Below the pieces are notes generated by a model. The model ran no database searches. It was not told where the DNA came from and worked only from the letters and a program-made list of their open reading frames with translations. Source: Prochlorococcus sp. MIT 0603 (GTDB taxonomy: Bacteria > Cyanobacteriota > Cyanobacteriia > PCC-6307 > Cyanobiaceae). Taken from it: 64,000 nt of DNA. A program made the position numbers and the translations under genes. The first letter of the stretch is position 1. Each line of letters begins with the position of its first letter. The stretch spans positions 310,001 through 374,000 of the forward strand of contig NZ_JNAW01000004.1 in assembly GCF_000760215.1 (NCBI RefSeq), in the 5' to 3' direction. Shown in pieces: positions 57,910-63,064 of the stretch.

Positions 57910-60711
57910 TTACTCTAAACCTAAAATACGCTGACGAACCAACTGAGCCTGAGATTCTGCATTAGCTAACTTATCTCTACATTCGGTAATAACTGTCTTT
58001 GGTGCTTTCTGAAGAAAACTAGAATTACTTAAACGATTTGAGAGGGATGAAATTTCCTTTTCAGCCTTAGTTAAATCTTTCTCTAAACGCATTCGCAAAG
58101 CATCTAAATCTACTAAGTTTTCAATCGGTAAAATCACTTCTAACTGACCAGAAACGCCTGCTAAAGATTTGTAATGCAATTTGCTGACAATATCTTTAGG
58201 ATGGATAACCTCTACTTCGCTCGCTCTTGTAAGTGCTTGAATATCAGGAATAGCTTTTTGTAGTAAATTTAAAAGAGACTGATTGTTCGTCACAAATCGA
58301 ACAGGAGCCTCTTGCGATGGTTTCAAGCCTGCTTCAGCTCTTAGATTTCTAACCAACCTTATTGAGTCAAATAACTCTGCAAAAGATAACTCTAACTCTT
58401 GATCTAATAATTTTTCATCCAGCCTTGGCCAAGATTGCAATGCAAGCAAGTTTGTAACAGGGCACCCTGTCACCGCATGCCAAAGCTGCTCCGTGAGATG
58501 TGGCATTAAAGGATGCAGCATTACAAAATACTCTCTCAACACCTTAAACATCACCATTTGCGAGTTTTTACGATCAATCAACTGACCCTCTGTAGGAGAA
58601 TCTCCTAAAGAAAGTCGACGTTTAGTTAGCTCAACATACCAATCACAAAAATCATTCCAAGCAAATTCATATAAACCCTTAGCAGCATCTCCAAGTAAAT
58701 AGTTTTTATATCTTTCAGATGTCTCCAAATTAACCTTGGACAGTCTTGATAAAATCCATTTATCTGATGGCTCTAAATTCAAATAATCTATATCACCATA
58801 TATCTCTTCAAAAGGAATATTTCCGCGATTGATTAAAGCAAACCTAGTTGCATTCCATAGTTTATTGGCAAAATTCCTTGCAGCCTCAACTGTTGGCGAA
58901 GTATCGGTAGCACGATCATAATCTAACCGTATATCTTGACCTGCTCCGACAACTTCTTTAACTAAAGCAAATCTAAGTGCATCAGTTCCATATCTATCAA
59001 TTAGTAGCAGTGGGTCTATTCCATTCCCCGAACTTTTACTCATTTTACGATTGTATTCATCTCTAACCAAGCCATGAATATAAACATCAGAAAAAGGTAT
59101 TTGGTCGGTAAAAGCAGCTGCCATCATTGTCATTCGCGCTACCCAGAAAAAAATAATATCAAATCCTGTTACTAAAGTATTCGTAGGATACCAACGTGAA
59201 AAATCAACATCCTTTTCATTTGGCCAACCTAAAGTCGAAAAAGGCCATAAACCACTAGAGAACCATGTATCTAGAACATCCTCATCTTGTTTAATCACTA
59301 CATTATCCCCATATTTTTGCTGAGCCTGTATTAATGCATCTACCTCATTACGAGCAACTATATAAGGGGTCTGATCAGTGACCTCATTATTTGTTTCACT
59401 CACAACAAACCACGCAGGTATGCGGTGTCCCCACCACAATTGTCGACTAATGCACCAATCACGAATACCAGTCAACCAATCACTGTAAACTTTTGCCCAG
59501 CGATATGGGACAAAACGTGGCTGGTCTTTCGTAAGTAACGAACGACAACGATCTGCCATTGGTTCCATACGAACAAACCATTGCGTTGAAAGTAACGGCT
59601 CTACCGGTACTTTGCCTCTTTCAGAAAAAGGAACCGTGTGATTATATGGTTCAACCTTAGTCAGCATTCCCTTTTCCTTTAGTGCTGCTATTACTGCTTT
59701 TCGAGCTTCAAAACGATCAAGTCCATCAAAAGGACCAGCATTTGCATTCATAGTTCCATCTTTATTCATTACTGTGATCTGTGGTAAATCATGTCTCTGA
59801 CCAATAGCAAAGTCGTTAGGGTCATGAGCAGGAGTAACTTTTACACAGCCTGTACCAAATGTCTTATCAACATGATCATCTGCTATCACAGGAATTTCAC
59901 GTCCTACAAATGGCAATAAAAGTTTTTTACCAACAAGCTTTTGATACCTTTTATCCGACGGATTTACGGCAACGGCAACATCCCCTAACATTGTTTCAGG
60001 ACGAGTAGTAGCAACTTCAAGATACGAAATAGCATCATCAGAAGATACATCTATCAAGGGATAGCGAAAATGCCAAAGATTGCCATCAACTTCTTTCATC
60101 TCTACTTCTAAATCACTCACCGCTGAACCTGAGGCTGGGCACCAATTCACAAGATATTCTCCTCGATAAATCAAACCTTGTTGATGTAAACGAACAAAAG
60201 CCTCAGAAACCGCCTTACTAAGTCCTTCATCCATCGTAAATCTTTCTCTTTGCCAATCAACTGAAAAACCCAAACGACGTAATTGCTGAACAATCCGACC
60301 ACCACTTTCCGACTTCCATGCCCATGCTCGCTTTAAAAAAGCATCTCTACCTAATTGATTTCGAGTAATCCCTTCTTCTTTTAATTGCTTTTCCAAAATT
60401 GTTTGAACAGCAATAGATGCATGATCAGTTCCAGGCAAACACAGAACATTTTTTCCTTGCAAGCGCTGAAATCTTACAATTGCATCTATCAAAGCAGTAT
60501 TAAAAGCATGTCCCATATGTAAGCTTCCAGTGACATTGGGAGGAGGAATTACAATCGCAAAAGGTTCGCCTTCATCACTAGCATTGGGATGAAAAGCAGC
60601 TAAGTCATCCCATATTGCTTGCCAACGAGACTCTGTGGCTACGGGGTCATATCTGTTAGAAAATACATCCGCTGCATTTCCTAAATCATCTTTAGCTGAC
60701 TGCTCTTTCAC
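57910..60711 (-). CDS. valS: Valine-tRNA ligase
   Basis: ValS charges tRNA-Val and edits threonine. The 933-residue class I enzyme has the HIGH signature as [15 protein letters not shown] (residues 56-70), the editing domain ([31 protein letters not shown]), the tryptophan-rich catalytic block [27 protein letters not shown], and the C-terminal coiled-coil arm ([19 protein letters not shown]). A tRNA-Val gene lies 1.3 kb away at 62017. A 65-base spacer separates it from the upstream unknown gene. Confidence 0.98.
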
Positions 60712-60776: not shown

Positions 60777-61232
60777 TTAGCCACTTTCTGAGGAATTCCA
60801 TGGAATTGAAATTAATTGATCATGTAATAACCATGTATTGGAATCAGAACTCAGTCTCAAACTCAAGCCAGTTATTTCTAATGCCTCTCTGCATTTTTCA
60901 TATATCAATGGTTGATCAAGCTCTATAGGCATCACGAATACCTTGGTTTCTGCAGGATCTCCCAAAATATAGAGGCCAAGTTCTTCTAATGTTCTTTCAA
61001 AAAAAATCTTTCTCATACGAATAGTTAAAGGTAATCCCAAGGCATCAGCAAAAATCTGAAGGCTTTCTCTCTCCCCTGAAAAGCCACAATTTAAAGACAA
61101 CCATATCAAGAACTTCGCCCAACTATCCACGGTCCACATCGGCTCAAAACTAGTTCTTTGATTTCGGACCAACTCAGACAAGGCAAAATCAAAGGTTTTC
61201 GCTTGAATATCTGCATGAATAGTTTTTTTCAT
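60777..61232 (-). CDS. Protein of unknown function (151 residues)
   Basis: I do not recognise a characterised family. The soluble sequence has a helical first half (VDSWAKFLIWLSLNCGF, SLQIFADALGLPLTIRMRKI) with FFERTLEELGLYILGDPAET as its most distinctive stretch, then a short strand-rich end. No catalytic or metal motif is visible. It precedes valS on the same strand and diverges from the 83-residue gene. I believe relatives occur in other marine picocyanobacteria, but this was not checked. Confidence 0.65.
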   Translation of the reverse strand: MKKTIHADIQAKTFDFALSELVRNQRTSFEPMWTVDSWAKFLIWLSLNCGFSGERESLQIFADALGLPLTIRMRKIFFERTLEELGLYILGDPAETKVFVMPIELDQPLIYEKCREALEITGLSLRLSSDSNTWLLHDQLISIPWNSSESG

Positions 61233-61296: not shown

Positions 61297-61548
61297 ATGG
61301 ATTTAAATGACCCAGAACTAGAGTTCTCTGATTTGATTTACGCCTATCAAAGCTGGGTAATGGCTGTAATCAATGATAAGAAACTAACAAATGGAGAAGA
61401 GCTTCTTACAGAAGACATAGCAGATGATGCAATTAATGCAATGAGATTCCTATCTGGTGACGTAACTAATGCTATAGAGACAAGTTTAGCAAGAGTGTAT
61501 GACGTGGATGCAGAGGAATTGGCATCATTACTGTTCCCAGAAGAGTAA
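61297..61548 (+). CDS. Small acidic protein of unknown function (83 residues)
   Basis: The 83-residue product is strongly acidic and probably helical: LEFSDLIYAYQSWVMAVIND, ELLTEDIADDAINAMRFL and ARVYDVDAEELASLLFPEE. There is no cysteine, signal peptide or membrane span. It resembles short conserved cyanobacterial proteins without known role. It stands alone, with about 100 bases of AT-rich spacer before the convergent IscA-like gene; that spacer holds no further gene. Confidence 0.62.
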   Translation: MDLNDPELEFSDLIYAYQSWVMAVINDKKLTNGEELLTEDIADDAINAMRFLSGDVTNAIETSLARVYDVDAEELASLLFPEE

Positions 61549-61648: not shown

Positions 61649-61996
61649 TTACTTATCAAGATTTAATTTAAAACCTGTGCCACATCCACTTGCCTGTGCT
61701 CCTTTTGGAGTGCTAATCAAAAAACCACCCCCAGTTAAATCTCCAAAATAATCAAGTTTTAAACCCTCTAACAAAGACAGTTGATCTGATGGAGCATATA
61801 GGGTTATTCCATCAGTTCTAGCAATCGGAACTCCAGATTGATGGCCAGATCTCAATCGAATATATAACCAGCCTTCACCAAAACTATCAGGCAATAAATC
61901 AATATGCATTAAACCTGGTGAACCAGCAAAAGTTGACTGTCGAACAAGTTCAGCAGCTGCAGTTGCTGTAATAGTTAAACCAAAAGTCTTGAGCAT
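61649..61996 (-). CDS. IscA/HesB-fold protein with a single cysteine
   Basis: The 115-residue protein has the A-type carrier fold: ITATAAAELVRQS at the start, DGITLYAPSDQLSLLEGLKL in the middle and the end TGGGFLISTPKGAQASGCGTGF. Functional IscA, SufA and ErpA use one cysteine in the middle and a C-G-C pair at the end to hold a 2Fe-2S cluster. Here the middle cysteine is missing and only the second cysteine of the pair remains (C105, the sole cysteine of the protein). It may serve in another way, bind a cluster only as a multimer, or act as an adaptor. It lies 20 bases after tRNA-Val on the same strand. Confidence 0.78.
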   Translation of the reverse strand: MLKTFGLTITATAAAELVRQSTFAGSPGLMHIDLLPDSFGEGWLYIRLRSGHQSGVPIARTDGITLYAPSDQLSLLEGLKLDYFGDLTGGGFLISTPKGAQASGCGTGFKLNLDK

Positions 61997-62016
61997 CTTG
62001 CCTTAATTGACCAAAT

Positions 62017-62087
<71 letters not shown>

Positions 62088-62275: not shown

Positions 62276-63064
62276 ATGACTAATAAAATTAAAAAAACCC
62301 AATCTGATCAAGCCATAAACGAATTATTAGAAATAGTCGCAAAGCTACGGGACCCTAATCATGGTTGTCCGTGGGATATAAAGCAAAACCATAAATCATT
62401 AATTCCATATGCAATTGAAGAGGCTCATGAAGTAGCAGATGCCATTAAATATGGAAATAATGAAGATCTTTGCGACGAACTTGGCGATTTATTATTGCAA
62501 GTTGTCCTTCATGCACAAATAGCAAAAGAAAGTAACCACTTTTGCTTTGAAGATATCGCAAAATCAGCCACTAAAAAAATGATAAGGAGACATCCACATG
62601 TTTTTCAGGAGAATAAAAGAAAAAGTTTAAAAGAAGTTGAGAAAATTTGGGAAGATATCAAAAAAATAGAGCGAGGAGAGGCAACAAAAGACTACACGTT
62701 TAGTGAAAGATTATTAAAAAAAATACGATCCAAAGCTGCTCTCAATGGATCGATATACATTTCTAAAAAGAGTATTGACAATGGAATAGAGCTTAATAAG
62801 AAAGAAGATTTATGGGAAACACTTGTAAGAGAAATTACCTCCTTAAAAAATGAAATAGAAAAAGAAAATATAAAAGAAGCTAGCAATATCTTAGGCAAGC
62901 TACTATTTTCCCTTATTAATTTTGCTATCTCACATAAATTAGATCCAGAAGAATCTCTCAACAAATCAAATAGGTTCTTCTTAAATCGATTCAATCATAT
63001 AGATTCTAATAAAAATAGAGTGGAGATCCAATCTCTATCAAAAATAGACCGAAAAATTATATGA
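62276..63064 (+). CDS. mazG: Nucleoside triphosphate pyrophosphohydrolase MazG
   Basis: MazG hydrolyses nucleoside triphosphates to monophosphates and pyrophosphate, cleaning up unusual dNTPs or lowering ppGpp effects. The 262-residue protein has two MazG domains. The first is complete: DPNHGCPWDIKQNHKSL, EEAHEVADA (E48, E49, E52) and CDELGDLLLQV (E68, D71). The second is worn: the motif expected to read ELGDLLF is ILGKLLF (K208 in place of Asp). The 188-base spacer upstream holds no gene or clear RNA. It precedes the spermidine synthase gene. Confidence 0.93.
   Translation: MTNKIKKTQSDQAINELLEIVAKLRDPNHGCPWDIKQNHKSLIPYAIEEAHEVADAIKYGNNEDLCDELGDLLLQVVLHAQIAKESNHFCFEDIAKSATKKMIRRHPHVFQENKRKSLKEVEKIWEDIKKIERGEATKDYTFSERLLKKIRSKAALNGSIYISKKSIDNGIELNKKEDLWETLVREITSLKNEIEKENIKEASNILGKLLFSLINFAISHKLDPEESLNKSNRFFLNRFNHIDSNKNRVEIQSLSKIDRKII

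Follow-up and report, generated by a model that had tools for sequence, protein, structure and literature searches.

The iscA2 locus of Prochlorococcus sp. MIT 0603

The window analysed in this study is a stretch of 64,000 nucleotides from the genome of Prochlorococcus sp. MIT 0603 (contig NZ_JNAW01000004.1, positions 310,001 to 374,000). Its minus strand carries an iscA2-like gene (61649..61996 including the stop codon) that starts with ATG and encodes an A-type protein of 115 amino acids with a single cysteine in an S-x-C motif. The gene is located at a valS-mazG-speE locus, between the upstream tRNA-Val(tac) (62016..62087, minus strand), which marks the valS-locus position, and an adjoining conserved gene for 83 amino acids (83-aa gene, 61297..61548, plus strand). 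The latter served as a syntenic landmark, together with a conserved 151-aa gene (60777..61232, minus strand) and a mazG-like gene (62276..63064, plus strand). The mazG-like gene was named by eye, as was valS (57910..60711, minus strand), which encodes valyl-tRNA synthetase and was the source of an independent tree; a speE-like gene lies nearby. For the 83-aa and 151-aa genes, no family above the cut-off was found in Pfam or NCBIfam, and a scan for promoters and terminators yielded no signal exceeding that of shuffled sequences. The 83-aa gene has a match in eight of ten genomes examined, the two exceptions being of the high-light type.

The same gene order is present in many low-light relatives. 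In high-light relatives iscA2 adjoins valS and the two small genes are absent, and still other genomes have iscA2 elsewhere. Judged by its close relatives throughout the order and by its low dN/dS (see below), the iscA2-like open reading frame is a real gene. It is under purifying selection, and the IscA-like nature given to it in a preliminary description of this DNA is supported.

Ligand sites and fold of the protein

Cys105 (codon 61682..61684, minus strand) is the only cysteine of the protein and stands in the context A-S-G-C-G-T-G-F, as the preliminary description had reported, without naming the strand. According to the phmmer alignment with 1x0g, the IscA of Thermosynechococcus (T. elongatus), solved with a [2Fe-2S] cluster, from which all ligand-site equivalences were taken, C105 aligns with Cys103 of that protein. 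Ser103 (codon AGT, 61688..61690, minus strand) occupies the site of Cys101, the first cysteine of the CxC pair, and Phe39 (61880..61882, minus strand) that of the upstream Cys37. For this upstream site we use the label C35, following E. coli IscA. The Cys-Xn-Cys-X-Cys ligand set is therefore absent, with one cysteine left and two of the three sites gone, as described before.

The fold is kept, which was also part of the earlier description. The best solved sequence relative is 1x0g (phmmer, E 1.4e-9). An AlphaFold model (pLDDT 92.1, pTM 0.84, alignment of 43 sequences) has 1x0g_C as its top Foldseek match (E 6.7e-7), and VIA-align superimposes the two over 105 residues at 2.2 Å (Z 12.2), followed in rank by SufA, E. 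coli IscA and DsrR (2k4z, Z 9.4). The predicted structure thus has the A-type fold.

The profile scores are low: 13.7 bits for PF01521 (Pfam cut-off 26.3) and 30.8 of the 58.8 needed for TIGR00049 (NCBIfam, E 2.6e-7). Kinship with IscA, weak by Pfam, is nonetheless clear from the E value of TIGR00049, from phmmer and from the structure search. As three-cysteine picocyanobacterial members also fall below the PF01521 cut-off (a Synechococcus-type member gave no match at E 0.1, a high-light member 16.8 bits), the family cut-off carries little information on cysteine loss. A match of the analysed sequence to AIRS_C (AIR-synthase-like) lay below its cut-off and was judged spurious.

Relationship to IscA2 and other A-type proteins

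The genome yielded one further A-type gene (G000:C1:118699-119019). It is of the SufA type, a name resting on its motif, and belongs to the same superfamily as the window protein but has all three ligand cysteines (GGCSG, TCGCG) and clears the Pfam cut-off. When PF01521 was applied to nine genomes, IscA2 scored above the cut-off in the three non-picocyanobacterial ones, and each of the six picocyanobacterial genomes had just one gene that passed, of the SufA type. Within the order, a match at E <= 0.001 was obtained in 200 of 200 sampled genomes; usually there were two, one generally being the SufA paralogue. At least one genome, G197, which is 95% complete, gave a weak SufA-like match only, and IscA2 was not found in it.

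In a 45-row tree, a branch with support 91/83 unites 18 IscA2 rows from picocyanobacteria with 18 from other cyanobacteria. The stem leading to the picocyanobacteria is very long, and the alternative that joins picocyanobacterial IscA2 to SufA withstands the AU test (p-AU 0.40). With fair though not full confidence, we call the window gene IscA2, its orthology with other cyanobacterial IscA2 being favoured. It shares with 1x0g, and presumably with Synechocystis IscA2 (slr1565), the fold, the length and the status of a second A-type gene besides SufA. The differences are the long branch, the scores of the examined picocyanobacterial members below the Pfam cut-off and the ligands: of the three in 1x0g (Cys37, Cys101 and Cys103), the window protein has a counterpart to Cys103 alone. 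A further mark of the group is R60, present in 114 of 114 picocyanobacterial rows versus one of eight other cyanobacterial rows.

Some proteins with fewer cysteines than their relatives offer comparisons. Monothiol CGFS glutaredoxins have one active cysteine where relatives have two; they are an analogy only, and their fold is unrelated to the A-type fold. DsrR (2k4z) has an IscA-like fold, as has the window protein, and lacks the ligand cysteines, whereas the window protein retains C105 and has no dsr-type gene neighbours. According to the title of a work cited in PMC11406059, DsrR binds neither iron nor Fe-S clusters, and part of the same source describes its participation in the regulation of sulfur oxidation. 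The degenerate A-type domain of NfuA is short of a ligand cysteine yet required in vivo, as stated in a section of PMC8593673. It is fused to a C-terminal Nfu domain, whereas the window protein is free-standing and has no match to a NifU domain.

Distribution of the ligand cysteines

Since the loci were collected by their match to the window protein, with the best ones taken, the proportions given here differ in meaning from population frequencies. Before scoring, we removed from the 168 distinct matches ten loci that are of the SufA or nif type or come from outside the class, all rows shorter than 95 amino acids, and IscA2 of other cyanobacteria in excess of eight. The remaining 143 sequences, 135 picocyanobacterial and eight from other cyanobacteria, were scored; resident copies read later for the comparison of gene swaps lie outside this set. 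The type labels used for genomes (SS120, MIT9211, MIT9313, NATL, LLI, HL, HLI, Synechococcus-type) follow what we take to be their kinship or sequence type.

All three sites are cysteines in 76 of the scored sequences, 68 of them picocyanobacterial. Among the other picocyanobacterial sequences, 33 retain C105 only, 26 lack C103 and eight lack C35, where "C105 only" is said of the ligand sites and leaves room for cysteines elsewhere, which some of these proteins have. C105 is a cysteine in 143 of 143 sequences. The one-cysteine form is thus not common to all marine picocyanobacteria, a point which the preliminary description had raised. It had also held that three-cysteine orthologues would refute its reading by showing a strain-specific change. 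Such orthologues do exist; a strain-specific change is nevertheless wrong as well, as the one-cysteine form has several origins.

Merging rows of equal state with more than 97.5% identity reduced the 143 rows to 122 for the gene tree. With the cysteine columns excluded, this tree requires at least 12 changes at C35, six at C103 and none at C105; it is built on few columns and has many open forks, and a change might be a regain. The independent ValS tree (61 rows) gives seven changes at C35 (five forced by starred branches) and four at C103 (two forced). Both sites were lost six times on it (four forced), C105 never. If the sites were equally losable, C105 would be spared in 18, 11 or 7 events with a chance of 0.0007, 0.012 or 0.06, respectively. 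A single ancestor for all one-cysteine forms was rejected (p-AU 7.7e-7, 41-row tree), the clades used in the AU tests having been named after inspection of the trees. As judged from these trees, the one-cysteine state arose several times. Since it is shared and recurrent, a strain-specific mutation or a sequencing error was rejected as its source. No statistical linkage between the losses of C35 and C103 was established, the independent pairs being too few.

Replacement residues and selection

In the 59 scored sequences that lost C103 the replacement is serine in 58 and threonine in one. The serine codon is AGY in the SS120 type (19 sequences) and the HL extra copies (six), and TCY in LLI (30), in L065 and L097 and in one of two MIT9313-type rows, the other of which has the threonine (ACT). 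As both AGY and TCY codons occur, cysteine was replaced by serine at this position by at least two mutational routes. Codons of serine and cysteine are one step apart, which favours serine somewhat. The site of the lost C35 is variable, with Phe, Ser, Leu, Tyr, Gly or a gap. From this pattern, position 103 looks held to cysteine or a hydroxyl residue, and C105 to cysteine.

The dN/dS values given are medians of pairwise values (Nei-Gojobori, pairs with dS 0.05-1.2). They amount to 0.194 in the one-cysteine SS120 type (19 sequences, 149 pairs) and to 0.189 in the three-cysteine Synechococcus type (14 sequences, 47 pairs). The values for LLI (30 sequences, 427 pairs), the HL main copy (28 sequences, 261 pairs) and the HL extra copy (five sequences, seven pairs) are 0.094, 0.089 and 0.089. 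Within LLI the constraint is slightly weaker on one-cysteine pairs (0.120, 20 pairs) than on C-C pairs (0.079, 253 pairs). By this measure iscA2 is retained in every cysteine state covered.

Relocated and extra copies

In three genomes (G002, G049 and G033) valS, the 151-aa and 83-aa genes, tRNA-Val, mazG and speE are all present and iscA2 is gone from its slot, where tblastn gave nothing below E 0.97. The sole IscA2 found in each of them is a one-cysteine copy located elsewhere, in surroundings that differ among the genomes. The iscA2 gene of G033 groups with the SS120 type in the careful tree (88/92). ValS rejects a grouping of G033 with the SS120 type (p-AU 0.0013), and iscA2 in turn rejects placing G033 among its relatives by ValS (p-AU 0.010). 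The one-cysteine gene was thus transferred horizontally. A phage-borne gene was rejected after a search for relatives that gave 62 pattern matches in viral_contigs, none of which was confirmed, and no phage tblastn match at 0.01.

Two relocated one-cysteine genes, L055 and L241 (the latter in G049, which also contains L003), lie near genes for CobW-type GTPases. L241 has in addition apparent genes for a zinc-uptake transporter and a Fur-type regulator nearby, named by eye. A link of these two genes to metal homeostasis is possible; no such neighbours were seen at other relocated copies in the stretches examined.

Genus g2 comprises 58 genomes of the high-light type (this count and that of the 47 controls below were made by hand). 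A third IscA-type match was detected in nine of them, and a tenth genome, G073, was found on checking. All ten extra copies are of the one-cysteine form, with S-S-C-G. Their placement with the SS120 type is favoured by the trees, not proven; a simple duplication of the HL main copy is disfavoured, and the grouping with that copy is not rejected (p-AU 0.098). In the open frames of the extra copies L025-L031, L287, L288 and L293 there is no ATG at the expected start, and TTG is a possible start in L243.

Six of these genomes (G026, G027, G060, G095, G116 and G166) have an intact resident three-cysteine copy, and in four it is decayed. In G024 it has a dN/dS of 0.34 against other residents, C103 is replaced by Phe and a conserved Trp by Cys. 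The G129 resident has a dN/dS of 0.45, with C103 changed to Phe and C105 to Ser. The resident of G130 contains four in-frame stops, and that of G073 lost its frame ahead of the CxC motif. For 23 other residents dN/dS values of 0.056-0.124 were measured. Where the extra copy is lacking (47 g2 genomes), every resident gives a match of E 4.5e-36 or better, and none is counted as decayed. Eleven of these controls were read and all are intact, nine with three cysteines and two of HLI type (G016 and G067) without C35. The difference between four of ten and none of 47 gives a Fisher p of 0.0005, with 36 controls judged by match score. Restricted to three-cysteine sequences that were read, thus excluding the two HLI-type controls, it is four of ten versus none of nine (p 0.087). 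The comparison is post hoc and unplanned, and G197 was kept out of both arms.

As residents decay in genomes with the extra copy and in none of those without it, the one- and three-cysteine forms look interchangeable. This suggests that the one-cysteine protein can take over the work of the three-cysteine protein. The two forms may also differ in role, since six of the ten genomes retain an intact resident. The decayed G129 resident shows that C105 is not kept without exception; its loss is confined to copies decaying beside a second copy, and as far as the sequences tell, C105 is kept wherever iscA2 looks functional.

Function of the one-cysteine protein

According to the preliminary description, the protein has left the carrier role for a different conserved function. 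Our data do not support this, and the apparent interchangeability of the two forms makes it doubtful. The decay of three-cysteine residents, and the reliance of G002, G049 and G033 on a one-cysteine copy as their only IscA2, with the valS slot empty, rather suggest that an unchanged job is carried out with a single ligand site. We favour, with a confidence just short of even, the reading that the window IscA2 does the conserved job of three-cysteine IscA2 and that this job needs C105 and neither C35 nor C103. The three-cysteine site of the A-type carrier fold is cut down to its monothiol end, S103-x-C105, and C105 would most likely give a single ligand or thiol to iron or to a cluster held together with another protein. 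The prime candidate for this partner would be an IaiH-like HEAT-repeat protein with an invariant cysteine, followed by the intact three-cysteine SufA-type paralogue. For the one-cysteine IscA2, we infer metal or cluster binding, the identity of the partner and a physical complex. A stronger version, in which Prochlorococcus has time and again made of the three-cysteine carrier an S-x-C subunit that deals with iron or clusters solely in concert with HEAT or SufA, yet does the old job fully, spreads between lineages by transfer, has displaced the three-cysteine resident in some and drives its decay in high-light genomes, is a possibility that we regard as doubtful.

The job of IscA2 might never have been metal carriage. 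It could consist in client binding or regulation, in the manner of DsrR or of the A-type domain of NfuA, with C105 as a structural or redox thiol. DsrR is indeed among the structural matches, the R60 of all picocyanobacterial rows may be a sign of a specialised surface, and the interchange of one- and three-cysteine forms fits this reading equally well. The A-type domain of NfuA, which lacks a ligand cysteine, targets NfuA to its clients, according to part of PMC8593673. However, half of the scored family keeps the full three-cysteine site, and a pure binding role leaves unexplained why all 143 scored sequences combine C105 with Cys, Ser or Thr at position 103. We consider this reading unlikely, though the likeliest of the alternatives. 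Less probable still is a homodimer whose subunits each contribute C105 to a [2Fe-2S] cluster completed by Ser103 or by two thiols from outside (glutathione), in the style of monothiol glutaredoxins. The replacement of C-x-C by S-x-C or T-x-C in all 59 scored losses would suit it, as would the CGFS glutaredoxin encoded in the same genome, but serine is a rare Fe-S ligand and we know of no A-type protein that uses glutathione as a ligand. A precedent is GrxD, with one cysteine per monomer plus glutathione, as described in a section of PMC8593673.

Slow decay, with the SufA paralogue doing the work, neutral erosion of the ligands and a chance survival of C105, is very improbable. It would account for the repeated loss of ligand sites and for the slightly higher dN/dS of the LLI one-cysteine pairs, and a Synechocystis iscA mutant is listed without visible phenotype in a part of PMC7058544. 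Yet dN/dS lies at about 0.09 to 0.19, true decay as seen in the redundant residents (elevated dN/dS, stops, frame loss) looks different, the survival of C105 by chance has the low values calculated above, and a one-cysteine gene was transferred between genomes and then kept.

These findings bear on iron handling in the iron-poor ocean, where Prochlorococcus is a very abundant cyanobacterium. A-type carrier function and the importance of each of the three cysteines are still argued over. Natural variation acts here as a mutagenesis experiment, as C35 and C103 disappeared on several occasions and position 103 takes Cys, Ser or Thr (n=143). Together with the apparent gene swap, these losses rank the ligands by evolution, and natural one-, two- and three-cysteine IscA2 proteins are available for direct comparison. 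In the open-access literature we found no published account of this ligand loss in Prochlorococcus; the main texts of PMC7144353 and PMC2682760 do not mention the genus, and the part of PMC11357015 describing HEAT domains as commoner in LL strains holds no IscA2 result.

Candidate partners

In 1x0g, one molecule provides Cys37, Cys101 and Cys103 and the other only Cys103, as given in parts of PMC6908724 and PMC6006206; the latter attributes the domain swap to a crystallisation artefact. The ISCA2-IBA57 complex requires all three ISCA2 cysteines, according to a section of PMC6908724. Co-evolution, as summarised in part of PMC5471300, supports a coordinating role of Cys37 and thereby three-cysteine function in the family at large. 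Stable cluster binding by the IscA of Synechocystis depends on IaiH, which may supply a cysteine, as put forward in a part of PMC7058544. Where IscA is absent, iron limitation has been described to be sensed by mistake.

A HEAT-repeat protein (PF13646, E 2.4e-32), by inference the IaiH (slr1098) of the literature, was found at E 1e-20 in 149 of the 150 genomes sampled from the order, and it is equally universal beside three-cysteine IscA2. Among 34 sequences, Cys77 is present in all, Cys204 in 33, Cys55 in 32 and Cys96 in 28. The gene of the window's genome (G000:C4:150273-151079, L250) has neighbours encoding a Fer4_13 (4Fe-4S) ferredoxin, DUF1257 and DUF2997. Judged by eye, the surroundings are similar in G028 and in G001, where this gene is the sole HEAT_2 locus found. 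The four genes possibly form an Fe-S-related group. The window's genome also encodes two SUFBD proteins and a separate Nfu-type protein with CxxC, besides the CGFS glutaredoxin.

A tracking of the HEAT cysteines with the cysteine state of IscA2 was not seen beyond the LLI clade. Within this clade, Cys96 of the HEAT protein is replaced by serine in all six LLI-type genomes read (L257, L258, L260, L262, L264 and L266). The same clade changed C103 of IscA2 to serine, so far a single coincidence.
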